The notes under the pieces: generated by a model
What the model saw: the letters and a program-made list of their open reading frames with translations, nothing else
What the model was told of the DNA's origin: nothing
Database searches by the model: none
Origin: Polychytrium aggregatum
Lineage: Eukaryota > Chytridiomycota > Chytridiomycetes > Polychytriales
DNA length: 64,000 nucleotides
Direction: 5' to 3'
Assembly (NCBI RefSeq): GCF_025602895.1
Contig: NW_026516233.1
Coordinates: 372,001 to 436,000 of the forward strand
Program-made: the position numbers and the translations under genes
Shown here: positions 5,931 through 47,374 of the stretch, in pieces
Position numbering within the stretch: the first letter of the stretch is position 1
Layout: each line of letters starts with the position of its first letter

Positions 5931-6059
5931 TGACGCGGCATGTCTACTACAGAATGAAATGGGGACACCGTTTCTAACCAGGACAGTGTTTTTTTCTGGA
6001 ACCTGAATACACCCACCCGCTCATCGCATTCACGGCAAACACAGCACCATCTTGATATC

Positions 6060-6345
6060 GAGAAACCACACTTTGTCCAGAGGGTCGAGTGAATGCACCA
6101 CAGTCACACATCGAGACATCAATGCCTCGCGGAACATGATCTCGGTATGCCAGTCGATCATCGCCACAGGAGATCGACCGGGTGTATTCAAGACTGTGCT
6201 TCCCAAACCAACCAAAACCACTCGATTGCCAACCAGGACGGGAAACAATCTCACGGCTTGCTCACTGGAGTCTAAGGAAGTTCGGCTGGTTCAGATATCT
6301 GAAGCCAGGAAGGGGAAGTGTCCCGTTTCTTTCTGGACCGACTGT
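6060..6345 (+). mobile_element. Fanzor 3'-end relic A (C-terminal coding remnant plus terminal repeat)
   Basis: In one frame, bases 6103-6210 encode a 36-residue segment that aligns without gaps to the last 36 residues of the intact Fanzor at 34999-37359, with 22 identities by eye (shared strings RDxNAxRNMI, VCxSI and RPxVF, ending LPK). It includes the RuvC-III Asp context. The homology continues upstream to a HFV match with frame disruption, so the gene is broken. About 110 bases downstream, at 6319-6337, lies a string matching the element's terminal repeat (tgtcccgtttctttctgga). No transposase or upstream Fanzor domain remains. This is a dead coding fragment, but it keeps the region from the zinc finger to the element end. 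Confidence 0.75.
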
Positions 6346-30843: not shown

Positions 30844-31450
30844 TGCGATGGATCGGTGCTGGATCGGTGCTGGATCGGTGCTGGATCGGTGCTGGATCGG
30901 TGCTGGATCGGTGCTGGATCGGTGCTGGATCGGTGCTGGATCGGTGCTGGGTCGGTGCTGGATCGGTGCTGGGTCGGTGCTGGCTTCTCTCTCGCTGTCC
31001 TGCTTTTGGTTCTTGTGCACAGCGGAAACGGCAAATTGAATCGGGCCAACGGAGAATGGCTTCACGTGACACCATGCCTGCCACGACCAGGGTGCCCAGC
31101 TGCCGTGTGGCACCGCGCACGTTGGGTGACAGCCGCCGCCCTGGCGCGCCGGCGCGGGGCCCACGTTCCGCCGGCGACCAATCGGCGGCGCGTCAGAGTG
31201 ACACAGAACCGGACACGTCACGCGCGCTCGTCCGTCTTCGTCCCTCCGCTTTCCCCTTTGCCTGGTCGTCTCCGACTCCCTCTTGCCACCTGCCCTTTGC
31301 CCGCTTCGGTCGCTTTTCCTGTCGCCTGGCTCGCCCTTTTTGGCACCTCGCCATCGATTCGGGGCGTATTCTACTCGGAAGATACCCCATCCAGCCCGCA
31401 TCGCCCGCATCGCTCAACTCGTCCGTCGTCACCCACCAGGCCCTGCTCTC
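30844..31450. other. Intergenic with minisatellite; promoter of kinase copy 2
   Basis: Begins with the 11-bp array, then GC-rich DNA and pyrimidine-rich DNA up to the kinase start codon at 31451. The array is open in several frames but contains no gene. Confidence 0.5.
30847..30983. repeat. 11-bp minisatellite (GGATCGGTGCT)n
   Basis: About 12 copies of an 11-base unit, nearly perfect with an occasional GGGTCGGTGCT variant, start three bases after the stop codon at 30843. As 11 is not a multiple of three, the array is unlikely to have been coding. Confidence 0.95.
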
Positions 31451-34400
31451 ATGGAAGTTTCGGCTCTTGTCAGCCAGGCAGTGGCGCTCGCCCGCAAGAC
31501 TCCCCACGGGCCGCTCTCCGCCGCTGTCCAAGAGTCGCTTAGCCTGCTCTCTGGCCTGGCCTTGATTGAGGAAAACACCAGCTCCTGCGGCTTCCTGGCC
31601 AATGCTTCCTTTGACCTTCTTCAGACGCTCGTCCGGCTCCCGCCGGAAGCTCCCGCACAGGCCAGTCTGGCCGGCCGCTTGCAGCAGCTTCACGGCCGCA
31701 TGCTTCAGTTTGTCGCCGGTCTGCGGGCTCGCCCCAGGATCGCAGCTCTGTTTGGCGGCGAGCAAACCCGCAGCTCTATTCGGCAGTTTTGCATCCACCT
31801 AGGCTCGCTCTGGGAGGGCATCGCTCCCGTCCTCCCTGCCCAAGATGTCCACAGGATTGACTTGGCCAAGCTCGAACAGGTCCTGAGAGCCGATCAAGTC
31901 CTGGAAGCCAACCTGATCGCCAGCATCACCGAGCTCCTCCAGGCAAACGACTCGGCTGCCCTCGACAAGGCCGGGATCACGCTGAACATGCTCGAATGGC
32001 AGATCCGCCAAGCGACGCACTCGCTCCTTAACCTTGTTGACGACGACCATGTTCCCGCCGACCTGGTGGAGACCACAATCGCGCCGCTGCTTCAGATGCT
32101 CCAGCAACAGTTTCCCGCAGCCCGATCGATGAAGAAAGAAAACTGGCGGATTTCGCCTGGAGACATCACCGACATGTCGCAATACCCCATCGCCCGCGGC
32201 GGCTTTGGCGAGGTCTTCAAGGCATCCTACTTTGGCTCCGACGTTGCCGTCAAGCAGCTTCTGGCCAGCTACAGCGAGCGCGAAATTGTCGAGTTCCGCC
32301 GCGAGATCGACATCTGGCACAAGCTCAACCATCGCCACATCCTCCCGCTCAACGGGGCCTGCGATATCTCGGAGCGACCCTTCATGGTTTCGCCTTTCAT
32401 GCCCAACGGCACCCTTCACAACCATGTGACCGAGCCCGGCCACAGCCGTCCCTTGGCCGAGAAGCTCAGATTGATGTACCAGGTGGCCTCGGGAATGACC
32501 TATCTCCATGGCAAAAACATTGTCCACGGCGATCTCAAGCCCGCCAATATCCTCCTCGACGTTGGATACCGCGTCGTCATCTCTGACTTTGGCTTGTCTC
32601 GCACCAAGTACACATCGTCCACCGCAAAGCGGGTCAAGTCGGATGCAGGCGCCGGGGGCACCTTTGAGTACATGGCACCCGAGATGCTGGATGAAGAGGA
32701 CCCCTGCGGCGCCAACAAGAAAACCGATGTCTACGCCTTTGCGATCATGTTTTATGAGGTGCTCGGCGATGGACGAAGCATATGGGTTACCAACGACGGC
32801 CAGCCGATGCGGGAGAAAGCGATCGCCCTCCGGATCGCCCGGGGCAAGCGACCGCTGCGATTCGATGGCATCCCGGACGAGATTTGGTCGCTCATCGAGC
32901 ACTGCTGGGACCACGATCCCGATCGCCGCCCCGGTTTCGCCGAGATTCTTGGGGTTCTGGAGGACTACAAGAACGATGCCCCGCCTGATAAGGGCCACAT
33001 TCGCAACCACCCCTCTGTCGGCAGCTCCATTTGGAATACCCTGTCCCTGGACCGCCCCTCGGATGGCAGCGCATCCCTCGATCGGCCCTCTGGGGAGCCC
33101 GCGTCAAGAAATCCTCTCTCTGCACCGGCTTCCGCATCGGTCTCTGGATCTGCCTCTGTGCCTGCCTCTGCTTCTGCCTCTGCCTCTGCCTCTGCATCTG
33201 CATCTGCCCCGGCCCCTGTAGCAGCAGCTCTGAGCGACCGCAGGCGTCTCCTCACAAAGCCGTCGTTTCATTCAGACGACTCGTGGGCCAGGAGAACAAC
33301 CGATCTGTTGCTGGATCTCCAGTCTGATCCCTCGGACTCGATCGCCCAGTCGCCCAGCCGCCCCCCGTCAACGCGGAGCGGGGTGTCGGGCCTGAGCAAC
33401 ACACTCCACCGCGATGGCTCTGCTTGGAGCGATGCCGACTCGATACACGGCAACGAGCAGCCGAGTCGACCCGCTTCAAGCCAGGGCACCGCGGGGCGGA
33501 TGTACGAGAGGCTTGTCTCGTTCGATGACTCCGAAGCCGGCTTCCAGCTCGGCTGGCTCTACCTCACTGGCACGGGAGTTCAGCAGAGCGACCGGGATGC
33601 CTACATGTGCTGGAAGCAAGTCTTCACGCGATCGACCGATCCCATCCACAAACCCATCGCAACCTTTATGATCGGCTGGCTGTACTACCTCGGCCGCGGA
33701 CTCCGCCAAGATAAGCAAAAGGGAATCGAGTTTATTCGGCAGAGCAAAACCGCAGAGTTTGATCTTGGAGAAGAAGAAGTCATGTCCCCCGAGACTCCAA
33801 TCTCGTCCAAATCGGCCGCTGCACAGACGCTGCTTCAGCTGTGCCTGTTTGGCGCAGATCAAGACTGGCTCTGCAACCACTTGGCCGCCATATGCCTCGC
33901 CTCTGGATTTGGCACCGCCAAAGATCCGCACAGAGCCTTCCAGAAGCTGCAGGCGTTGGCCAGTCAGGATTATGATATCAGCCAGTATTGGCTCGGGGTC
34001 TGCTACGGCAAAGGGTGGGGCGTGTGTGCCGACCACGAAAAGTTCTTCCAGTGGTGCCGCAAGTCTGCCAACCACGGCAACGCCTACGCCCAAGACATTG
34101 TCGGCCGATGTTACGAGCAAGGCTGGGGCGTGAGCCGTGATCCCTCCCGAGCCGTCGAGTGGTATCAGGTCTCGGCCAAGCAAGGAAACCGCTACGGCCA
34201 GTACAGCCTCGGCCTGTGCTATCAAGCTGGGACGGGCATCGCCAAGGACGAGGTAGCAGCCGTGCGGTGGTGCTTCAAATCAGCCGAGCAAGGGTACGAC
34301 CACGCCCAGTTCAGCCTGGCGATCTGCTATCGGAACGGCCACGGAGTGCCTCGAAGCTTTACCAAGGCTGCCGAGTGGTGCACCAAATCGGCAGAGCAGG

Positions 34401-34567
34401 GAAACTTGGACGCGCAATGTATCTTGGCCTCGTGCTTCGAGAAGGGCACCGGGGTTAGCCCGAGTTTTGAAACGGCTGCGTATTGGTACGGGAGGGCAGC
34501 GGCAAGAGGCCACCGCGCCGCGATCGAGAGACTGCAGAAGCTCCGGATGCGAGGCCTGGTGGTTTAA
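31451..34567 (+). CDS. TKL-type protein kinase fused to C-terminal Sel1 repeats (copy 2)
   Basis: Single exon, 1038 residues from the ATG at 31451 (MEVSALVSQAVALARK). Residues 1-230 are an all-helical domain. The kinase (about 245-505) has ARGGFGEVFKA, VAVK (K268), REIDIW (E285), HGDLKPANI (D361, again HGD), DFGLSR (D379) and APEML, so it should be catalytically competent. A linker follows with a Ser-Ala tract (coded by TCTGCC repeats near 33160-33215). Then come about eight Sel1 repeats (FQLGWLYLTGTGV, SQYWLGVCYGKGWGV, YAQDIVGRCYEQGWGV, YGQYSLGLCYQAGTGI, AQFSLAICYRNGHGV, DAQCILASCFEKGTGV). It is a clear paralogue of 16438-19296, with similar order and intronless. The Sel1 array probably serves as protein-binding scaffold; pathway unknown. 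Confidence 0.88.
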   Translation: MEVSALVSQAVALARKTPHGPLSAAVQESLSLLSGLALIEENTSSCGFLANASFDLLQTLVRLPPEAPAQASLAGRLQQLHGRMLQFVAGLRARPRIAALFGGEQTRSSIRQFCIHLGSLWEGIAPVLPAQDVHRIDLAKLEQVLRADQVLEANLIASITELLQANDSAALDKAGITLNMLEWQIRQATHSLLNLVDDDHVPADLVETTIAPLLQMLQQQFPAARSMKKENWRISPGDITDMSQYPIARGGFGEVFKASYFGSDVAVKQLLASYSEREIVEFRREIDIWHKLNHRHILPLNGACDISERPFMVSPFMPNGTLHNHVTEPGHSRPLAEKLRLMYQVASGMTYLHGKNIVHGDLKPANILLDVGYRVVISDFGLSRTKYTSSTAKRVKSDAGAGGTFEYMAPEMLDEEDPCGANKKTDVYAFAIMFYEVLGDGRSIWVTNDGQPMREKAIALRIARGKRPLRFDGIPDEIWSLIEHCWDHDPDRRPGFAEILGVLEDYKNDAPPDKGHIRNHPSVGSSIWNTLSLDRPSDGSASLDRPSGEPASRNPLSAPASASVSGSASVPASASASASASASASAPAPVAAALSDRRRLLTKPSFHSDDSWARRTTDLLLDLQSDPSDSIAQSPSRPPSTRSGVSGLSNTLHRDGSAWSDADSIHGNEQPSRPASSQGTAGRMYERLVSFDDSEAGFQLGWLYLTGTGVQQSDRDAYMCWKQVFTRSTDPIHKPIATFMIGWLYYLGRGLRQDKQKGIEFIRQSKTAEFDLGEEEVMSPETPISSKSAAAQTLLQLCLFGADQDWLCNHLAAICLASGFGTAKDPHRAFQKLQALASQDYDISQYWLGVCYGKGWGVCADHEKFFQWCRKSANHGNAYAQDIVGRCYEQGWGVSRDPSRAVEWYQVSAKQGNRYGQYSLGLCYQAGTGIAKDEVAAVRWCFKSAEQGYDHAQFSLAICYRNGHGVPRSFTKAAEWCTKSAEQGNLDAQCILASCFEKGTGVSPSFETAAYWYGRAAARGHRAAIERLQKLRMRGLVV

Positions 34568-34751: not shown

Positions 34752-34914
34752 TGAACGGACTGCTTCCGTTTGACGAGCCACTCCATGCGCGCAGAATGGA
34801 TTGAATAGCCTGCGTCGAGGTGCTTCATAGTGCTGAGAGACAACTTGGGAGATATTACAGGAATGCCATCCCTGGGTCAGCCTCCTCACGTGTGGATGCT
34901 ACACTATATTCAGA

Positions 34915-34927
34915 AAAAAACGGGACA
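34915..34927 (+). repeat. Terminal inverted repeat, left end
   Basis: AAAAAACGGGACA, preceded by ttcaga. The longer string ttcagaaaaaaacgggaca resembles the ends of the relics at 6319-6337 and 8598-8615 in reverse complement. Confidence 0.75.
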
Positions 34928-34998
34928 ATATAGCCGTTTCCATGAACATGTAGTATGTGATGGCATGCGTCAAGCAAAGCCACAAGAAATAAAACAGA

Positions 34999-37359
34999 TC
35001 ACTTTGGCAGCCTCCGAGTGAAGACCGCCGGTCGCTCTCCGATCTCCACAATCGACCTGCACACTGTGATCATGTTGCGCGCCGCGTTGACGTCGCGATT
35101 CCACACTGTCAGACAGCTGGGATTCTTGCAGCTCCTGACAAAGTGGGAATTCGCAACACTGGGCGCATCGAGTCCTTCCAACCGAACTGGCTCCAGGCAC
35201 TTGGAGCACACTTGCGAGGTGTTGAACTCGTTCGTCGAGGCCACCTTGACGCTTCCATGAGGGTGATTGGGCCGGCGTCGGTGGTGCTCGAACTGCTCAA
35301 AGTACCGAGCAAACCGCTGCCTCCGAGGGCTGGATGCATAGCCCTTGCCTTGTCGCCATGACGCATTGCCAAAGGCGATCACCACATCGGTCCGTATTGG
35401 GGCGTGCTTCAGGACGGCCTTGCACATCCTGTCGACGGCCACTTGGCGCCTCTTGTGGCCCGTGAATCGATGGTGACGGGCCTTCTTGCCAAGGTGGAAG
35501 TCGAGCTGCACTCGCAGCTCCGGTCGCAGGACATGGGTGAGATGGACCTTGAAGGCCTCCGAGGACGACACCTTGGGCGAGGGAGTGGTCGACATCCAGG
35601 TCTCGATATCGAGTCGCTTCTTCATGGTATTGTGCCACCTGTGGCCACACATGTGCTGGTAGTGGCCATTCGAGAACGAGACCACCTCGTCTTGGTGGCC
35701 CGGTGCTTGGATGACCGCCGTGAAGATGGAGCCGACTCCAGGATCGATGCCAATCCAAGTGGTGCGGTTGGGGTCTGGGTCTCCGATGTGGGCCTGGATG
35801 CGCTGCTCGGCAGTCGGAGGAGGCTCGGAGGTCTCGGTGCGATCGGTTCGAGGCAGAAACTTGACGAGACCGATGGTGCATCCAATGCCATCGGTGCTGA
35901 TCTCGTAGTTGAACAGCTTGTGATTGATATCCCGGTCACGGAAGAGGGAACTACGCAGCTTGAAGCAACTGCGCCAGAGACGATCCTGGTTGTTGATGCC
36001 GTCATCACCTTCTTCCTTGAGCTTGTCCCGGGTGAGTCCAAGGCGTTTCTTTGGACCAAGGAGCTCCCAGAGAGTGGCCGTGTCGATCTTGACATACTTG
36101 GCCCTTGCAGTGCATAGAGGAACTATCGTGCACACGGCCGGAGGAGTGTCGACGGCGAGCTGCTTGAGTGCCCACTTGATCCTGGCGGCCAGCTTGTTGA
36201 TCTTGGACTTGGTGGTGCCGAGCTCAGACTTGGCCTTGGTGAACCTCTTGTCGTCGGAGGGAATGCCTCTGGCAGTGAGCTCGTCCAGCTTGGCCTGGCG
36301 CTGCAGCTCGGTGACTCGGAGGGCGGGCATGTCACAGTCGATCCACTTGTGGACATTGTCGACCATCTTGTCCCGGGCGAGGATTCCCACATGGTGTGAG
36401 AGGCGATGGAGGGCCCGGAAGCGGTCCTGGTCGTTGCTGTACCGAAACTCGTCCAGGACGTGGCCAAAGTCTGGATAGAGGAACTCGAGATCGGCCTTGG
36501 GTGGAGTCTGCCCTGGTTTCTCGAAGAGCTCGAGACAGGCCTCGATGGCTTCGTGCTTATGCTTGTTGGCTGGGAAGACGGCAGCGCAGAAGCGGCGAAG
36601 GAGTCGCCAGTAGGCCAGGTTGAGGTGGGTGGTGCAGTTGGTGGCATAGGCATTGACAGCGAGAGTGAGAAGCTGACTGTGAGCACCATCAGGCAGACGA
36701 GGGGCCGGAGGCAGGTCTGCGTGCCGAGTGGACTGGTAGATGCCAAAGGAAGCGACCAGCTTCTGCTCGTATTTTTCATTGTCCCTGGCTGTCAAGAGAG
36801 CACCAGCCTGGACGATCGTGAAGCATTGGCGGATGAAAGCAGGGGTGGTCTTGGAGATGACGGGGATGGGAATATCCTGCTCGATGCACCGGAGGATATG
36901 TAGGTTGAGCAGCCTGGATGCCTCGAACTGGATCTGGGTCATGGCCTCGACGGTGGCCTGGATCTTGTCGCGGAGAGCGGGATTGAGACAACAGCCATAC
37001 ATCGTCTGCTTGAAGCAGCTGAACTGAGGGGCGGATGACCTTCCATCCACGAGTGGGACGACAGAGCTCTTGAGGGGCCGGTATTTGGGACATTTGCTGG
37101 TGTTGCTTCGCTCGTGATCGGTGCCATCGCACTGGCGACATCGCTTGCCGGTACTCGAGGAAGTAGATGGACCAGGCTCGGTGGGATCGACATCCATTGG
37201 ATCTGCAGAAGCAGTGGTGGTGAGCGACGGAGCAACAGACGACCAAGCATGCGTGGGATCAGAATACGAACCAGAGACAGGCTCCGACTGTGACTTGGCT
37301 TTCTTGGGCCTGGGTGGCCGAGGCTGGCCATCACCGGTACCCTTACGCTTCGGAGGCAT
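34999..37359 (-). CDS. Fanzor: eukaryotic TnpB-like, RNA-guided RuvC endonuclease
   Basis: Intronless, 786 residues, start at 37359. Fanzors are nuclear TnpB/Cas12 relatives that cut DNA with a guide RNA encoded at the element's end. The N-terminus is basic and disordered (PPKRKG, RPKKAK), a likely nuclear signal. A small CCHC-type zinc knuckle follows (C74, C77, H82, C90). Helical recognition and wedge regions fill about 110-520. RuvC-I is WIGIDPGVGS with D539. At the usual RuvC-II place the sequence is VVIAFGNASW, with Phe663 where TnpB has the catalytic Glu. About 48 residues later NEFNTSQVCSKC offers E711, the alternative Glu known in Fanzors. The RuvC zinc finger uses C718, C721, C744 and C749. 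RuvC-III is WNRDVNAARN with D756. All expected catalytic residues are therefore present and the protein looks intact. Confidence 0.93.
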   Translation of the reverse strand: MPPKRKGTGDGQPRPPRPKKAKSQSEPVSGSYSDPTHAWSSVAPSLTTTASADPMDVDPTEPGPSTSSSTGKRCRQCDGTDHERSNTSKCPKYRPLKSSVVPLVDGRSSAPQFSCFKQTMYGCCLNPALRDKIQATVEAMTQIQFEASRLLNLHILRCIEQDIPIPVISKTTPAFIRQCFTIVQAGALLTARDNEKYEQKLVASFGIYQSTRHADLPPAPRLPDGAHSQLLTLAVNAYATNCTTHLNLAYWRLLRRFCAAVFPANKHKHEAIEACLELFEKPGQTPPKADLEFLYPDFGHVLDEFRYSNDQDRFRALHRLSHHVGILARDKMVDNVHKWIDCDMPALRVTELQRQAKLDELTARGIPSDDKRFTKAKSELGTTKSKINKLAARIKWALKQLAVDTPPAVCTIVPLCTARAKYVKIDTATLWELLGPKKRLGLTRDKLKEEGDDGINNQDRLWRSCFKLRSSLFRDRDINHKLFNYEISTDGIGCTIGLVKFLPRTDRTETSEPPPTAEQRIQAHIGDPDPNRTTWIGIDPGVGSIFTAVIQAPGHQDEVVSFSNGHYQHMCGHRWHNTMKKRLDIETWMSTTPSPKVSSSEAFKVHLTHVLRPELRVQLDFHLGKKARHHRFTGHKRRQVAVDRMCKAVLKHAPIRTDVVIAFGNASWRQGKGYASSPRRQRFARYFEQFEHHRRRPNHPHGSVKVASTNEFNTSQVCSKCLEPVRLEGLDAPSVANSHFVRSCKNPSCLTVWNRDVNAARNMITVCRSIVEIGERPAVFTRRLPK

Positions 37360-37563
37360 GGGGGCAGAGAATGCTGGATGCCTGCCAGTGGTACTGGTCA
37401 GAGCAGAGACTTTTTTTATCGTACAATGGCGCGATGATCAGATCAAGGCGAGATGAGGGAAGAAAGCAGCAGAGACGAAGGTGGGACATTTATACCCGAG
37501 AGCAGGAGCCCGTCTTTGCGGGCTGGTTGGGGAAGTGACCCTGTTCAAAAATCGCCGAGAGGT

Positions 37564-38481
37564 TCAAGCCAGGGATTTGAGCGTGAAAATGGCGGCTTGA
37601 TTGGGGAGCTCAACCCCAAAATTGATGGGGACTAAACCCCAAAATGATGGGGACTCAACCCCAAAGAAGTTCTCGATGGGATTGAAGTCGGGTGAGGCAG
37701 GTGGGGTGAAGATCACTGACCATCCTCGGCGCTCGATGCAGTCCAGGACAGCCCTTGTCTTGTGCATGCTGACATTGTCCATCACAACCACAGAGTCGTC
37801 TGGGAAGGTCGCTCGCTCAAAGAACTCGACCATCGAGTGTGTCTTGAATGATGTGGGGATGTACATGCGATGCAGCACACCAGAGTGGTTGATGGCAAAT
37901 GCAGCCGAGACAGACTTGTGTTTCATGTGATTGCGCTGGCGAAGCGGAGTACCCTTCGGTGAGTATCCGTAAAGAGGGAAAATGGATCTCCTGATCCCCG
38001 TCTCATCGACAAAAACGAGCCGTCGTGGGTCGATGGAGCGGACCTGGTCCCTGAACTGTGCCACTCGCTCATCCAGTCGCTTGGACTTGTAGAGGTGTGT
38101 TGCCCTCTTGTGTGAGAGACCTGCTCGGTGGATGGCAGTGTGGCAGAGTGAGAGCGATACTTTCCTCTGGAGGATGGACTCGAGCTTGCATCGCAACACA
38201 GGACCAGTCTGGAACGGGTCCTGTTCAATCAGGGTGCGAATGACTGGACATGCCTGCTCGAAGAAAGTGGATCTGCGAGCTGGGACCCGGGATGGGTCAT
38301 CCAGCTTGCATCCTCGGTGCCATCGATGGATGGTGCTCTTGGATACACTGAATATGGAGGCGACCTTACGCAGGCTATGGATGAGGTCGTAGCATCGCAA
38401 TGCGGCGGTGCGAAAGTCGGATGTGTGGCGAATGGTCATGGCCAGCGCGCGATAACATTGGGTAACAAAATATTCGATCAA
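37564..38481 (-). CDS. Tc1/mariner (IS630)-superfamily DD34E transposase, altered C-terminus
   Basis: 305 residues from 38481; an alternative ATG at 38439 begins MTIRHTSDFR. The N-terminal half holds helix-turn-helix DNA-binding modules (LRKVASIFSVSKSTIHRWH). The catalytic triad is VFVDETG (D159), VVVMDNVSMHK (D235) and SPDFNPIENFF (E270), with 34 residues between the second Asp and Glu, hence DD34E. It would cut and paste the element at TA sites. Only 35 residues follow the catalytic Glu, and they are encoded by a local 22-bp repeat, so the original C-terminus may have been replaced. It sits 204 bases upstream of the Fanzor on the same strand and inside the terminal repeats. Activity is uncertain. 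Confidence 0.85.
   Translation of the reverse strand: MIEYFVTQCYRALAMTIRHTSDFRTAALRCYDLIHSLRKVASIFSVSKSTIHRWHRGCKLDDPSRVPARRSTFFEQACPVIRTLIEQDPFQTGPVLRCKLESILQRKVSLSLCHTAIHRAGLSHKRATHLYKSKRLDERVAQFRDQVRSIDPRRLVFVDETGIRRSIFPLYGYSPKGTPLRQRNHMKHKSVSAAFAINHSGVLHRMYIPTSFKTHSMVEFFERATFPDDSVVVMDNVSMHKTRAVLDCIERRGWSVIFTPPASPDFNPIENFFGVESPSFWGLVPINFGVELPNQAAIFTLKSLA
37603..37666. repeat. 22-bp hairpin-forming tandem repeat in the transposase 3' end
   Basis: Three units of 22-24 bases each carry GGGG(a)act(c/a)aACCCC, so each could fold as a small stem of four G-C pairs. They encode the last residues of the transposase frame after the catalytic Glu. Confidence 0.8.
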
Positions 38482-38497
38482 TGGTCAAAAACCCGGG

Positions 38498-38510
38498 TGT
38501 CCCGTTTTTT
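38498..38510 (-). repeat. Terminal inverted repeat, right end
   Basis: The plus strand reads TGTCCCGTTTTTT, the exact reverse complement of 34915-34927, followed by A to give a TA at 38510-38511. It lies 17 bases upstream of the transposase start. Confidence 0.75.
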
Positions 38511-38511
38511 A

Positions 38512-38700
38512 TTGGATTGCCTGTAAGCACCCATGGGATTTCACAGTGGCTCCTTGCTAAATGGACAGTGCGCTTGCATCTCCATCCAATGCGGGAAATC
38601 GCCGCCCCGAAGTATTCAAGGTTTCTTAACCAAGCCGACTCCAGATGTCCGAAGAGCATCGATTTGCAGGCGATAAAACATCAGAAAGCATAGCAAGGCA
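38512..38700. other. Outer right flank of the composite transposon
   Basis: Host DNA immediately outside the right terminal repeat. No second terminal repeat or coding remnant was found here, which argues that 38510 is the true element end. Confidence 0.35.
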
Positions 38701-39411: not shown

Positions 39412-42400
39412 TTAATTGTGGCCACCACCAGGCGTTTGAGGATGAAGACCAGGAGCCTGACTGTTATCACCAGGAGTCTGGTTGTTGTCACCAGGTGTTT
39501 GGTTGTTACCACCAGGTGTTTGGTTGTTACCACCAGGAGTCTGGTTGTTATCACCAGGTGTTTGGTTGTTATCACCAGGTGTCTGGTTGTTACCGCCAGG
39601 AGTCTGATTGTTACCACCAGGTGTTTGGTTGTTATCACCAGGAGTCTGGTTGTTACCACCAGGTGTTTGGTTGTTATCACCAGGAGTCTGATTGTTACCA
39701 CCAGGTGTTTGGTTGTTACCGCCAGGTGTTTGGTTGTTACCACCAGGAGTCTGATTGTTACCACCAGGTGTTTGGTTGTTATCACCAGGAGTCTGGTTGT
39801 TACCACCAGGAGTCTGATTGTTACCACCAGGTGTTTGGTTGTTATCACCAGGTGTTTGGTTGTTGCCGCCAGGTGTCTGGTTGTTATCACCAGGTGTTTG
39901 GTTGTTATCACCAGGTGTCTGGTTGTTACCACCAGGAGTCTGATTGTTACCACCAGGTGTTTGGTTGTTATCACCAGGTGTTTGGTTGTTGCCGCCAGGT
40001 GTCTGGTTGTTATCACCAGGTGTTTGGTTGTTATCACCAGGTGTCTGGTTGTTACCGCCAGGAGTCTGATTGTTACCACCAGGTGTTTGGTTGTTATCAC
40101 CAGGAGTCTGATTGTTACCACCAGGTGTTTGGTTGTTACCGCCAGGTGTTTGGTTGTTATCACCAGGAGTCTGATTGTTACCACCAGGTGTTTGGTTGTT
40201 ATCACCAGGAGTCTGGTTGTTACCACCAGGTGTTTGGTTGTTACCACCAGGAGTCTGATTGTTACCACCAGGTGTTTGGTTGTTATCACCAGGTGTTTGG
40301 TTGTTACCACCAGGTGTTTGGTTGTTATCACCAGGAGTCTGGTTGTTACCACCAGGTGTTTGGTTGTTACCGCCAGGTGTTTGGTTGTTATCACCAGGAG
40401 TCTGATTGTTACCACCAGGTGTTTGGTTGTTATCACCAGGAGTCTGATTGTTACCACCAGGTGTTTGGTTGTTATCACCAGGTGTTTGGTTGTTGCCGCC
40501 AGGTGTTTGGTTGTTACCACCAGGAGTCTGGTTGTTATCACCAGGTGTTTGGTTGTTATCACCAGGTGTCTGGTTGTTACCGCCAGGAGTCTGATTGTTA
40601 CCACCAGGTGTTTGGTTGTTATCACCAGGTGTCTGGTTGTTACCGCCAGGAGTCTGATTGTTACCACCAGGAGTCTGATTGTTATCACCAGGTGTTTGGT
40701 TGTTATCACCAGGAGTCTGGTTGTTACCACCAGGAGTCTGATTGTTACCACCAGGTGTTTGGTTGTTATCACCAGGTGTTTGGTTGTTACCGCCAGGTGT
40801 TTGGTTGTTACCACCAGGAGTCTGATTGTTACCACCAGGTGTTTGGTTGTTATCACCAGGAGTCTGGTTGTTACCACCAGGAGTCTGATTGTTACCACCA
40901 GGTGTTTGGTTGTTATCACCAGGTGTTTGGTTGTTGCCGCCAGGTGTCTGGTTGTTATCACCAGGTGTTTGGTTGTTATCACCAGGTGTTTGGTTGTTAC
41001 CGCCAGGTGTTTGGTTGTTGCCGCCAGGAGTCTGATTGTTACCACCAGGTGTTTGGTTGTTATCACCAGGAGTCTGGTTGTTACCACCAGGAGTCTGATT
41101 GTTACCACCAGGTGTTTGGTTGTTATCACCAGGTGTTTGGTTGTTGCCGCCAGGTGTCTGGTTGTTATCACCAGGTGTTTGGTTGTTATCACCAGGTGTC
41201 TGGTTGTTGCCGCCAGGTGTTTGGTTGTTACCACCAGGAGTCTGGTTGTTATCACCAGGTGTTTGGTTGTTATCACCAGGTGTCTGATTGTTACCACCAG
41301 GTGTTTGGTTGTTACCGCCAGGAGTCTGATTGTTACCACCAGGTGTTTGGTTGTTATCACCAGGTGTTTGGTTGTTATCACCAGGTGTTTGGTTGTTACC
41401 ACCAGGTGTTTGGTTGTTATCACCAGGAGTCTGGTTGTTACCACCAGGTGTTTGGTTGTTACCGCCAGGTGTTTGGTTGTTATCACCAGGAGTCTGATTG
41501 TTACCACCAGGTGTTTGGTTGTTATCACCAGGAGTCTGATTGTTACCACCAGGTGTTTGGTTGTTATCACCAGGTGTTTGGTTGTTACCGCCAGGTGTTT
41601 GGTTGTTGCCGCCAGGTGTTTGGTTGTTATCACCAGGTGTTTGGTTGTTACCGCCAGGTGTTTGGTTGTTACCACCAGGAGTCTGATTGTTACCACCAGG
41701 TGTTTGGTTGTTATCACCAGGAGTCTGGTTGTTACCACCAGGAGTCTGATTGTTACCACCAGGTGTTTGGTTGTTATCACCAGGTGTTTGGTTGTTGCCG
41801 CCAGGTGTCTGGTTGTTATCACCAGGTGTTTGGTTGTTATCACCAGGTGTTTGGTTGTTACCACCAGGTGTTTGGTTGTTATCACCAGGAGTCTGATTGT
41901 TACCACCAGGTGTTTGGTTGTTATCACCAGGAGTCTGATTGTTACCACCAGGTGTTTGGTTGTTATCACCAGGTGTTTGGTTGTTACCGCCAGGTGTTTG
42001 GTTGTTGCCGCCAGGTGTTTGGTTGTTATCACCAGGTGTTTGGTTGTTACCGCCAGGTGTTTGGTTGTTACCACCAGGAGTCTGATTGTTACCACCAGGT
42101 GTTTGGTTGTTATCACCAGGAGTCTGGTTGTTACCACCAGGAGTCTGATTGTTACCACCAGGTGTTTGGTTGTTATCACCAGGTGTTTGGTTGTTGCCGC
42201 CAGGTGTCTGGTTGTTATCACCAGGTGTTTGGTTGTTATCACCAGGTGTCTGGTTGTTACCGCCAGGAGTCTGATTGTTACCACCAGGTGTTTGGTTGTT
42301 ATCACCAGGAGTCTGATTGTTACCACCAGGTGTTTGGTTGTTACCGCCAGGTGTTTGGTTGTTATCACCAGGAGTCTGATTGTTACCACCAGGTGTTTGG

Positions 42401-45400
42401 TTGTTATCACCAGGAGTCTGATTGTTACCACCAGGTGTTTGGTTGTTATCACCAGGAGTCTGATTGTTACCACCAGGTGTTTGGTTGTTATCACCAGGTG
42501 TTTGGTTGTTGCCGCCAGGAGTCTGGTTGTTATCACCAGGTGTTTGGTTGTTATCACCAGGTGTCTGATTGTTACCACCAGGAGTCTGATTGTTACCACC
42601 AGGTGTTTGGTTGTTATCACCAGGAGTCTGGTTGTTACCACCAGGTGTTTGGTTGTTATCACCAGGTGTCTGGTTGTTACCACCAGGAGTCTGATTGTTA
42701 CCACCAGGTGTTTGGTTGTTATCACCAGGTGTTTGGTTGTTGCCGCCAGGTGTCTGGTTGTTATCACCAGGTGTTTGGTTGTTATCACCAGGTGTCTGGT
42801 TGTTACCGCCAGGAGTCTGATTGTTACCACCAGGTGTTTGGTTGTTATCACCAGGTGTTTGGTTGTTGCCGCCAGGAGTCTGATTGTTACCACCAGGTGT
42901 TTGGTTGTTATCACCAGGTGTTTGGTTGTTACCGCCGGGTGTTTGGTTGTTATCACCAGGAGTCTGATTGTTATCACCAGGTGTTTGGTTGTTATCACCA
43001 GGAGTCTGATTGTTACCACCAGGTGTTTGGTTGTTACCGCCAGGTGTTTGGTTGTTATCACCAGGAGTCTGGTTGTTACCACCAGGAGTCTGATTGTTAC
43101 CACCAAGTGTTTGGTTGTTATCACCAGGTGTTTGGTTGTTGCCGCCAGGTGTCTGGTTGTTATCACCAGGTGTTTGGTTGTTATCACCAGGTGTCTGGTT
43201 GTTACCGCCAGGAGTCTGATTGTTACCACCAGGTGTTTGGTTGTTATCACCAGGAGTCTGATTGTTACCACCAGGTGTTTGGTTGTTACCGCCAGGTGTT
43301 TGGTTGTTATCACCAGGAGTCTGATTGTTACCACCAGGTGTTTGGTTGTTATCACCAGGAGTCTGGTTGTTACCACCAGGTGTTTGGTTGTTACCACCAG
43401 GAGTCTGATTGTTACCACCAGGTGTTTGGTTGTTATCACCAGGTGTTTGGTTGTTACCACCAGGTGTTTGGTTGTTATCACCAGGAGTCTGGTTGTTACC
43501 ACCAGGTGTTTGGTTGTTACCGCCAGGTGTTTGGTTGTTATCACCAGGAGTCTGATTGTTACCACCAGGTGTTTGGTTGTTATCACCAGGAGTCTGGTTG
43601 TTACCACCAGGTGTTTGGTTGTTATCACCAGGAGTCTGATTGTTATCACCAGGTGTTTGGTTGTTATCACCAGGTGTTTGGTTGTTACCGCCAGGTGTTT
43701 GGTTGTTACCACCAGGAGTCTGGTTGTTATCACCAGGTGTTTGGTTGTTATCACCAGGTGTCTGGTTGTTACCGCCAGGAGTCTGATTGTTACCACCAGG
43801 TGTTTGGTTGTTATCACCAGGAGTCTGGTTGTTACCGCCAGGAGTCTGATTGTTACCACCAGGTGTTTGGTTGTTATCACCAGGAGTCTGATTGTTACCA
43901 CCAGGTGTTTGGTTGTTACCGCCAGGTGTTTGGTTGTTACCACCAGGAGTCTGATTGTTACCACCAGGTGTTTGGTTGTTATCACCAGGAGTCTGATTGT
44001 TACCACCAGGTGTTTGGTTGTTATCACCAGGAGTCTGATTGTTACCACCAGGTGTTTGGTTGTTATCACCAGGTGTTTGGTTGTTGCCGCCAGGAGTCTG
44101 GTTGTTATCACCAGGTGTTTGGTTGTTATCACCAGGTGTCTGATTGTTACCACCAGGAGTCTGATTGTTACCACCAGGTGTTTGGTTGTTATCACCAGGA
44201 GTCTGGTTGTTACCACCAGGAGTCTGATTGTTACCACCAGGTGTTTGGTTGTTATCACCAGGAGTCTGGTTGTTACCACCAGGTGTTTGGTTGTTATCAC
44301 CAGGTGTCTGGTTGTTACCACCAGGAGTCTGATTGTTACCACCAGGTGTTTGGTTGTTATCACCAGGTGTTTGGTTGTTGCCGCCAGGTGTCTGGTTGTT
44401 ATCACCAGGTGTTTGGTTGTTATCACCAGGTGTCTGGTTGTTACCGCCAGGAGTCTGATTGTTACCACCAGGTGTTTGGTTGTTATCACCAGGTGTTTGG
44501 TTGTTGCCGCCAGGAGTCTGATTGTTACCACCAGGTGTTTGGTTGTTATCACCAGGTGTTTGGTTGTTACCGCCGGGTGTTTGGTTGTTATCACCAGGAG
44601 TCTGATTGTTATCACCAGGTGTTTGGTTGTTATCACCAGGTGTTTGGTTGTTACCACCAGGAGTCTGATTGTTACCACCAGGTGTTTGGTTGTTATCACC
44701 AGGAGTCTGGTTGTTACCACCAGGAGTCTGATTGTTACCACCAGGTGTTTGGTTGTTATCACCAGGTGTTTGGTTGTTATCACCAGGAGTCTGGTTGTTA
44801 CCGCCAGGAGTCTGATTGTTACCACCAGGTGTTTGGTTGTTATCACCAGGAGTCTGATTGTTACCACCAGGTGTTTGGTTGTTACCGCCAGGTGTTTGGT
44901 TGTTATCACCAGGAGTCTGGTTGTTACCACCAGGAGTCTGATTGTTACCACCAGGTGTTTGGTTGTTATCACCAGGTGTTTGGTTGTTGCCGCCAGGTGT
45001 CTGGTTGTTATCACCAGGTGTTTGGTTGTTATCACCAGGTGTCTGGTTGTTACCGCCAGGAGTCTGATTGTTACCACCAGGTGTTTGGTTGTTATCACCA
45101 GGAGTCTGATTGTTACCACCAGGTGTTTGGTTGTTACCGCCAGGTGTTTGGTTGTTATCACCAGGAGTCTGATTGTTACCACCAGGTGTTTGGTTGTTAT
45201 CACCAGGAGTCTGGTTGTTACCACCAGGTGTTTGGTTGTTACCACCAGGAGTCTGATTGTTACCACCAGGTGTTTGGTTGTTATCACCAGGTGTTTGGTT
45301 GTTACCACCAGGTGTTTGGTTGTTATCACCAGGAGTCTGGTTGTTACCACCAGGTGTTTGGTTGTTACCGCCAGGTGTTTGGTTGTTATCACCAGGAGTC

Positions 45401-47374
45401 TGATTGTTACCACCAGGTGTTTGGTTGTTATCACCAGGAGTCTGATTGTTACCACCAGGTGTTTGGTTGTTACCGCCAGGTGTTTGGTTGTTATCACCAG
45501 GAGTCTGATTGTTATCACCAGGTGTTTGGTTGTTATCACCAGGTGTTTGGTTGTTACCGCCAGGTGTTTGGTTGTTACCACCAGGAGTCTGGTTGTTATC
45601 ACCAGGTGTTTGGTTGTTATCACCAGGTGTCTGGTTGTTACCGCCAGGAGTCTGATTGTTACCACCAGGAGTCTGATTGTTATCACCAGGTGTTTGGTTG
45701 TTATCACCAGGTGTCTGATTGTTACCACCAGGTGTTTGGTTGTTACCGCCAGGAGTCTGATTGTTACCACCAGGTGTTTGGTTGTTACCGCCAGGTGTTT
45801 GGTTGTTATCACCAGGAGTCTGATTGTTACCACCAGGTGTTTGGTTGTTATCACCAGGTGTTTGGTTGTTGCCGCCAGGTGTCTGGTTGTTATCACCAGG
45901 TGTTTGGTTGTTATCACCAGGTGTTTGGTTGTTATCACCAGGAGTCTGATTGTTACCACCAGGTGTTTGGTTGTTATCACCAGGAGTCTGATTGTTACCA
46001 CCAGGTGTTTGGTTGTTACCGCCAGGTGTTTGGTTGTTATCACCAGGAGTCTGATTGTTACCACCAGGTGTTTGGTTGTTATCACCAGGAGTCTGGTTGT
46101 TACCACCAGGTGTTTGGTTGTTACCACCAGGAGTCTGATTGTTACCACCAGGTGTTTGGTTGTTACCGCCAGGTGTTTGGTTGTTACCGCCAGGTGTTTG
46201 GTTGTTGCCGCCAGGAGTCTGAGTTTGGGTATTAGCTGCAGGCTGCGAAGCACTTGTTCCCGTTGAGGAAATTGTATTTGCAACGGTTGATTGTGTGGTG
46301 CTTCCTTCCGTCCCGATCGTTGTTCCCGTAATTACTGCCTGTGTTGTGCCTGTTACTGTGGTTGTTACTGATCCCTGTATAGTTGTCTGTGTTCCGGATC
46401 CAACTCCACTGCCAGCTGCGCTTGTGGTTGTTGTCTGTGTGATTGCAGAGCTCGTTGGGGCAGTTGTGCTCCCCGATGCTGTCTGAGTTGTGCCTGTTCC
46501 TGACGTTGAGGCTACCGTGGACAGTCCGATATCACCTGTGGTTGTCGTGCTGGACGTGGTCGTGGTCGACGTGGTTCCTGTGGACGAAGTTCCTGCCACA
46601 ATCGTTGAGCTTATTCCTGCCTCTAATCCTATTGTCGTAGTTGATGTCGCTGTTCCAGGCTCGACAGTCGTCGTCGAAGATGTTGTTCCAGGTGTCGTGG
46701 ATGTTGTCGCTCCAATCGTGGTGGTCGTGACCGGTTCAATAGTCGTCGTACTAGATGGTATAATAGTGGTTGCCGTCGTGGCTGGTATAATAGCGGTCGT
46801 CGTCGTTGCAGTTGCAACCCAGGTGCTCGAAAATGCATTGCCGATATCCGTGCTTGAGGAGGTTCCCGATATGTAAAAATTTCCTTTCGAGCCTTGGCCG
46901 TCAGTCGTCGTCGTTCCTCCAGACGCTGCAACTGTTCTGGTAACCGAACTGGCTACGGAAGTTCCCCAAGTTGCTGTACTTGTGCTCATAGAAGAGGACC
47001 CGTCCTTTGTTCCAGTTGCTGTGGCTAAAGTAGTTGTACGGGTATCGCCTCCGTTGGCCAAGGCGGTGGCAGTCGGCTTGATACCTGTGGCTCTTGAGAT
47101 CGGAGCGCACTTGAATACGCGGGTACTTCTCTGAATTGGTGTAGAAGCAGACACGGCATTCCCTGACAACCATCACCGGGTCAGTCCCACGTTCGGCCTC
47201 CCCTCCCTCCGCAAGAGTATTTTTACAAGCACCAATACGCAGCCATATATCGATCATGCTCTTTCCTTGAGCGCAAGTCTCACCATGATTCTCGTCATAA
47301 TTGGGCTCGGGTATATAGGCCGCACGAACAAGCGAAGCGGCCAAGAGCGGAGCGGCGATATAGAGTAACTTCAT
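39412..47374 (-). CDS. Giant secreted Thr/Ser-rich protein with about 320 NNQTPG(G/D) heptad repeats
   Basis: The ATG at 47374 opens a signal peptide (MKLLYIAAPLLAASLVRA) and a short Cys-containing domain. That frame stops at 46901. A second frame, open from about 47174 down to the stop at 39412, has no ATG at its start and reads a mucin-like Thr/Ser stalk and then the repeats. The two must be joined by an intron, or a frameshift, between 47174 and 46902; I could not fix the splice sites. The repeat region is an array of a 7-residue unit NNQTPGG or NNQTPGD, ending HPQTPGGGHN with no TM or GPI-type tail. Total is about 2,600 residues. Each unit holds an NQT sequon (followed by Pro, which lowers N-glycosylation) and a Thr for O-glycosylation. 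Probably an extracellular or wall coat or adhesin; function inferred. Confidence 0.75.
39438..46221. repeat. 6.8-kb array of a 21-bp coding minisatellite with higher-order structure
   Basis: About 323 tandem 21-base units, differing mainly at four positions: ggtgtttgg or ggagtctg(g/a) plus ttgtta(c/t)c(a/g)cc or ttgttgccgcc. Because the unit is a multiple of three without stops, four of six frames stay open for more than 6.8 kb. Only the minus frame reading NNQTPG(G/D) connects to a signal peptide. Blocks of many units recur in the same order, as near 39970, 43120 and 44980. Confidence 0.97.

Follow-up and report, generated by a model that had tools for sequence, protein, structure and literature searches.

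The 64,000-nucleotide window analysed here (positions 372,001 to 436,000 of contig NW_026516233.1 of the chytrid Polychytrium aggregatum) contains a 3,622-bp transposon in which a Tc1/mariner-type transposase and a Fanzor1 protein are enclosed by terminal inverted repeats. The element belongs to a large, multi-copy family whose insertion sites share a sequence motif on one side only, and the same transposase was also found joined to a second, different Fanzor.

A composite element carrying a transposase and Fanzor1

Both genes lie on the − strand, head to tail, with the transposase first, in agreement with the same orientation given in an earlier note on this DNA. The perfect 13-bp inverted repeat reported there, AAAAAACGGGACA, was recovered at 34915-34927 (+) and 38498-38510 (−). 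These are its only two exact copies in the window, where three matches were found at up to two mismatches against 0.95 expected. The repeat encloses both genes as claimed, but it does not mark the ends of the element. The comparison of 20 copies placed the outer ends approximately 13 bp further out, at TA followed by CACTWTATTCAG and TA followed by CAGGCAATCCAA, and the perfect repeat is the inner half of an imperfect terminal repeat of about 26 bp. The terminal inverted repeats of the two ends differ from each other. The coordinates of all features are collected in Table 1.

Table 1. Features of the composite element, in positions of the window
Feature	Position	Strand	Basis
TA target-site duplication, left (Fanzor side)	34900..34901		TA here in 38/39 copies; L006 empty sites
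Whole element, 3,622 bp	34902..38523	−	comparison of copy ends
Left terminal inverted repeat, imperfect, ~26 bp, inner 13 bp perfect	34902..34927	+	repeat search and copy comparison
Predicted guide-RNA scaffold region, 97 nt, Fanzor stop to element end	34902..34998	−	analogy with SPu-1 (PMC10432273)
Fanzor1, 786 aa	34999..37359	−	domain search, alignment, profile search
Tc1/mariner-type DD34E transposase, 305-codon frame, C-terminus replaced	37564..38481	−	domain search, alignment
~37 bp GGGGACTCAACCCC-type repeat replacing ~140 bp of transposase 3' sequence of 3.74-kb copies	37619..37655		copy comparison
Right terminal inverted repeat (transposase side)	38498..38523	−	repeat search and copy comparison
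TA target-site duplication, right	38524..38525		copy comparison
One-sided target motif TTA (TAA on +), expected position of the Fanzor target-adjacent motif	38524..38526	−	T in 75/78 distinct listed right-end flanks

The transposase matched the DDE_3 domain of Pfam (E = 2.6e-22), and its catalytic residues D159, D235 and E270 show the DD34E spacing of the Tc1/mariner superfamily, which substantiates the assignment made in the note. The 305-codon frame opens at TTG, with the first methionine at codon 15 (MTIRHTSDFR). The sole match in a PDB search with the transposase was Sleeping Beauty, which was not significant (E = 0.53). When compared with a 3.74-kb copy, the window element has approximately 140 bp (reference positions 2732-2871) exchanged for the short repeat, and its transposase ends in 31 unrelated residues instead of the roughly 50 residues that follow ENFFG in full-length copies. 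The description of the element as intact thus had to be abandoned; the two genes are not both complete, as they would be in an autonomous element. Part of the missing C-terminus is present at 130 genomic places at up to three mismatches, counting elements of either Fanzor type, and the window copy would probably be mobilised in trans.

The Fanzor matched the TNB zinc ribbon (Cas12f1-like) above the Pfam cutoff (E = 1.9e-8). Fanzor1 proteins are characterized, in the portions of the reports drawn on here, by the D and E of RuvC, a zinc finger and an RD pattern together with DPG and an alternative E (PMC10711439, PMC3627910). The window protein carries IDPG (538-541), NEFNTSQVC (710-718), a C4 finger (cysteines 718, 721, 744 and 749) and RD (755-756), and its acidic residues were placed at D539, E711 and D756. 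In a PDB search with the single sequence, SpuFz1, whose nuclease activity has been published (PMC10432273), was matched at E = 0.13 only. A profile of seven related Fanzors matched SpuFz1 at E = 0.0018 and GtFz1 at E = 0.089, and the profile alignment brought the D, the alternative E, the zinc finger and the RD into register with SpuFz1. Like other members of Fanzor1, the protein is carried by a eukaryotic transposon other than IS607. The open frame of 786 codons bears out the full length claimed for it, except that it lacks four residues (TSNT) kept in the five closest aligned relatives. The protein looks intact, with the D-E-D and zinc-finger residues retained, and nuclease activity is predicted. 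Not every open Fanzor of the family is likely to be active, as E711 is replaced by K in one copy (L039). Codons 401-480 (approximately, in the family alignment) are more variable, with a diversity of up to 0.13 per 100 bp and many shared replacement variants. In the whole genome, the zinc-ribbon model gave 663 first-look candidates, and all of the 150 scored passed the cutoff; the best-scoring places fall within short frames of 107 to 477 codons, pointing to the presence of other Fanzor kinds. Among viral contigs, 39 stretches matched a peptide pattern and none encoded a relative.

Family size, copy classes and selection

The 64.7-Mb assembly (418 contigs) was searched for further copies. At up to three mismatches, the left-end pattern was found at 328 and the right-end pattern at 291 genomic places, and the reversed controls gave none. 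About a fifth of the listed right flanks repeat another (22 of 100 rows), so the distinct sites are fewer than the end counts. Two sets of copies were compared: L001-L020, the best matches to the window copy, and L021-L040, the first 20 entries in a list of 100 exact left ends (328 at up to three mismatches). One copy was dropped as the same place as another (L023 and L010), leaving 39, of which L011 and L017 share both flanks. TA adjoins the left end in 38 of the 39 copies and the right end in all of them, counting L027 and L030, whose right TA was placed with altered right repeats; together with the empty sites described below, this identifies the TA duplication of the Tc1/mariner superfamily. 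The recurrence of TA-flanked ends, a few with altered right repeats, supports the view in the earlier note that transposase and nuclease form one mobile unit, and the Fanzor coding sequence is selectively maintained.

The copies fall into several length classes. The second set comprises elements of 3,726-3,740 bp (nine), 3,613-3,632 bp (three), 3,478-3,479 bp (two), 1,110 bp (two), 695 bp (one) and 306-309 bp (three), so that 11 of the 20 are shorter than 3.7 kb. The full 325-codon transposase frame is open in seven of them, a Fanzor of at least 788 codons in nine, and both in six. The three smallest elements (L022, L024, L028) keep approximately 216 bp of the Fanzor end and 82-99 bp of the transposase end, and therefore retain the predicted guide-RNA region.

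Selection was evaluated in 33 long copies, a set that includes one duplicated site (L011, L017) and up to 20 copies picked as best matches to the window element. Among variants shared by at least two copies, the Fanzor had 153 nonsynonymous and 167 synonymous changes, and the first 265 codons of the transposase had 30 and 44, giving omega-like ratios of 0.35 and 0.26, respectively, at a kappa of 3. Over kappa values of 1.5-6, the ratios ranged from 0.30 to 0.38 for the Fanzor and from 0.23 to 0.29 for the transposase. For the Fanzor, a ratio of 0.36 was obtained in the 24 copies shorter than 3.7 kb. These values indicate purifying selection on both genes. Diversity varied widely along the element (0.9 to 13% per 100 bp when the replaced segment is set aside), a pattern suggestive of exchange among copies.

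One-sided target motif, Fanzor exchange and neighbouring features

Immediately outside the right TA, A (T when read on the Fanzor strand) is found in 38 of the 39 copies, or in 36 of 37 when L027 and L030 are set aside, as their altered right ends were placed by their own TTA and have A there by construction; nothing comparable was found on the left side. T lies outside the TA in 75 of 78 distinct flanks of listed exact right ends versus 19 of 81 left flanks (Fisher's test, 7e-23); in 39 kb of the window, TA is preceded by T at a background frequency of 0.108. The next base out on the right is A or T in 64 of the 78 flanks and C in three. The flank listings cover 100 of 132 and 100 of 139 places, and flanks whose outermost pattern position is C are not included in them.

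The order of events could be read at one site. Copy L006 sits in a repeat with many uninterrupted copies, and all three that were fetched read TTTCTTGTTAAAAA across the junction; the uninterrupted copies carry TTGTTAAAA, with no base fewer. It follows that the TA was duplicated and that the A was there before the insertion, which supports, for this one copy, the TA duplication that the note had proposed to look for in empty sites. In this set of empty sites, the one-sided motif predates the element. For 31 other sites, no junction-spanning match was found among the 40 of 89 candidates scored, and at least 12 of these sites had a second matching half ending at the junction, as would an occupied duplicate or allele. 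When 38 sites were searched (40 of 685 candidates scored), junction-spanning matches for L011, L029 and L038 were judged to be their own right ends or duplicates and were rejected as empty sites; of the match places beyond their own loci, one was read (L043) and it was occupied. The left flanks of L011, L019, L029 and L038 lie at or beside sequence resembling the end of a related element, and a pattern for a possible further family near L019 matched only the flank of L019 itself.

Six loci combine the transposase of this family (A type) with another Fanzor (B type). In the 3.78-kb element L046, the right end and the transposase match the A type at 95.7% identity over 1,014 bp, as far as the stop codon of the transposase; from there on, its Fanzor shares 80% identity with the Fanzor of L045 and 42% with that of the A type. 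Five more such loci (L047, L051, L052, L053 and L055) were recognized by reading from the right end into the Fanzor. The transposase is 94-96% identical to the A type over 321 residues in five of the six loci, L053 having an internal deletion, and the Fanzor parts read are 40-42% identical. In L046 and three of the remaining five loci, a B-type left end was identified with TA next to it; in the stretches fetched for L047 and L055 there was no B-type left end. The six right flanks have T, A, C, G, T and T, respectively, outside the TA, that is T in three of six versus 75 of 78 A-type flanks (Fisher's test, 0.004). The starting set consisted of ten distinct TACAGCC right-end flanks (14 rows), with T in five; L048 (T), L049 (T), L050 (C) and L054 (A) had no transposase match and were dropped. 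The earlier note had named non-coinciding ends, or the two genes found independently with different ends, as evidence against a single unit. The ends do coincide, but the same transposase also occurs with another Fanzor and another left end, so the pair combines exchangeable modules. The exchange is the one result here, and a small one, that separates the transposase from the Fanzor.

Four additional B-type candidates (L061-L064) could not be classified by their Fanzor and were left out of this count. In L061 (C5) and L062 (C58), at bases 76-112 (approximately), the B-type left repeat lies on the transposase side just inside TACAGCCAATC; this rearranged end, common to the two loci, gives the impression that one end was copied onto the other. 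In L063 the base before TA is T, and L064 showed no repeat end.

Elsewhere in the window, a related Fanzor element remnant of about 395 bp lies between TA dinucleotides at 5950-6344, with approximately 61 C-terminal Fanzor codons (44% identical), end-like sequences and no transposase match. Beside the element, a long open frame at 31283-34567 encodes what we take to be a protein kinase followed by Sel1-like repeats. On the other side, a 2,585-codon open frame (39412-47169, −) consists mostly of an imperfect NNQTPGG/D repeat, and long frames are also open there in other frames and on the + strand.

Proposed role of the Fanzor and relation to known systems

The data can be accommodated by an element of two modules, one consisting of the right end and the DD34E transposase and the other of Fanzor1, the guide-RNA region and the left end. 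The transposase would insert the element at TA by a cut-and-paste mechanism. The Fanzor would bind an RNA read across the left end, which would extend as far as 34902 and on into the left flank beyond 34900, its last 15 nucleotides or so being derived from the flanking DNA. The unoccupied site on the sister or homologous chromosome, with 5'-WTTA (W, A or T) next to the flank, would then be cut, and repair would copy the element back or across. The one-sided T sits where the target-adjacent motif (TAM) of the Fanzor is expected, and WTTA is the predicted TAM. On the Fanzor strand, the occupied site has GTA, not TTA, before the guide position, and the element would thus spare itself. The one-sided motif, the fact that it predates insertion and its loosening upon the exchange of the Fanzor would fit the part in retention or re-copying that the note proposes for the nuclease. 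Taken as a whole, we consider this account slightly more probable than its being wrong in some part.

Several observations weigh against it. The predicted guide-RNA region folds just mildly better than shuffled sequences (z = −2.1 for the last 99 nt at the Fanzor end and −1.4 for 219 nt, compared with +0.5 and +0.9 when the two strands of the opposite end are folded), and two related left ends fold no better than shuffles (z = −0.6 and +0.4); a structure conserved across families was considered and is not claimed here. An Rfam search over the element returned no family, with one sub-threshold match (E = 0.98). Single-copy variants gave omega-like ratios of 0.63 for the Fanzor and 0.67 for the transposase, the latter not separable from 1. 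Insertions that are old and fixed would likewise leave no empty alleles. The B-type sample is small, comprising six sites, and the B-type terminal repeats differ as well, so the transposase is not perfectly controlled in the comparison. T likewise occurs at all 11 distinct sites with listed elements shorter than 1.2 kb (paired by hand from the listed coordinates), which are too short for the Fanzor gene, and the Fanzor would have to act there in trans.

The motif at these short elements would equally be expected if the site were chosen by the transposase. In such a case, the unequal ends would form an asymmetric complex preferring WTTA in one orientation, and the TAM would merely have evolved to match, with a modest benefit from the Fanzor. 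The differing terminal repeats of the two ends argue for it, as does the mild excess of T on the left (19 of 81 against 0.108). The fall of T to three of six sites with a 94-96% identical transposase and another Fanzor argues against it. Target preferences of Tc1/mariner elements are otherwise largely symmetric around TA, which also counts against it. We regard a transposase-intrinsic preference as a serious possibility, though not the expected outcome. Alternatively, the Fanzor could play no part as a retention nuclease and be a passenger instead, or a regulator of transposition that acts, for example, by binding the ends. Short elements and elements with a truncated transposase are frequent (11 of 20 sampled copies below 3.7 kb), showing that neither gene is needed in cis; the Fanzor frame is broken in five of 14 sampled copies of at least 3.4 kb, and L039 has lost the acidic residue noted above. 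However, purifying selection on the Fanzor is comparable to that on the transposase and the window copy keeps its D-E-D residues, making this explanation unlikely. That the A beside the right TA is carried by the element, without any target motif, can be practically dismissed despite its presence in 38 of 39 copies, as the uninterrupted repeat copies contain the A too, the occupied site shows no extra base, and three of 78 A-type and three of six B-type flanks are without it.

The account of RNA-guided retention may be extended to homing. The transposase would land at any TA, and copies would spread or persist only where the unoccupied allele has the TAM, as the Fanzor would cut that allele and the element would be copied in. 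Short elements with the guide-RNA end would ride along in trans, and a Fanzor cassette swap on the same transposase would change the site rule. It is a doubtful proposition at this stage that WTTA is a population footprint of natural RNA-guided homing in a eukaryote.

TnpB of IS200/IS605 is similar in that RNA from the element end guides cleavage of the unoccupied site and the TAM matches the insertion motif. These elements differ in having an HUH transposase and a single-strand mechanism, not DDE cut-and-paste. The comparisons that follow concern the portions of the cited reports used here. Composite mariner-Fanzor1 elements are already known, having been described in 2013 by Bao and Jurka (PMC3627910). 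PGv-1 and PUl-1 likewise combine a mariner transposase and Fanzor1 in one element bounded by terminal inverted repeats, with TA duplications, but PGv-1 is a single-copy viral element with a further endonuclease gene, whereas the present family has two genes, hundreds of copies and several length classes (PMC3627910). A one-sided motif is also known, from SPu-1 of Spizellomyces punctatus, the element of SpuFz1. SPu-1 shares with the window family Fanzor1, putative TA duplications and a guide-RNA region between the stop codon and the 3' repeat (PMC3627910, PMC10432273), as well as ghost elements devoid of Fanzor and a motif conserved only on the 5' side (PMC10432273). Its RNA of 88-90 nt consists of a 75-nt scaffold at the 3' repeat and 14-15 nt of flank; its TAM is CATA, and both the Fanzor-bearing and the ghost elements have a conserved CA in front of the 5' repeat (PMC10432273). 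The one-sided CA plus TA would give the measured TAM. Unlike in the window element, no transposase was found within the SPu-1 repeats (PMC3627910, PMC10432273); the motif of the window family is T(TA) with A or T before it, and its protein similarity to SpuFz1 is weak. GtFz1 of Guillardia theta resembles the family in a TAM containing TTA (TTAAN) but no inverted repeats or clear transposase association were found for it (PMC10432273). A plasmid-based gene drive of insertion sequences by RNA-guided nucleases is in print (PMC11870625). Among the matches listed in a literature search by titles and the starts of abstracts, with most subscription papers outside its scope, we found no high-copy transposase-bearing Fanzor family and no Fanzor cassette exchange.

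What is added here is a large transposase-bearing family together with a cassette-swap comparison with which the role of the cutter in insertion or retention can be tested. With regard to the role of Fanzors for eukaryotic transposons, the family makes the retention or homing model directly testable, as it offers a natural comparison of one transposase with two Fanzors and a TAM predictable from insertion sites. It also suggests a cheap rule, by which a one-sided flank motif may predict the TAM of uncharacterised Fanzors.

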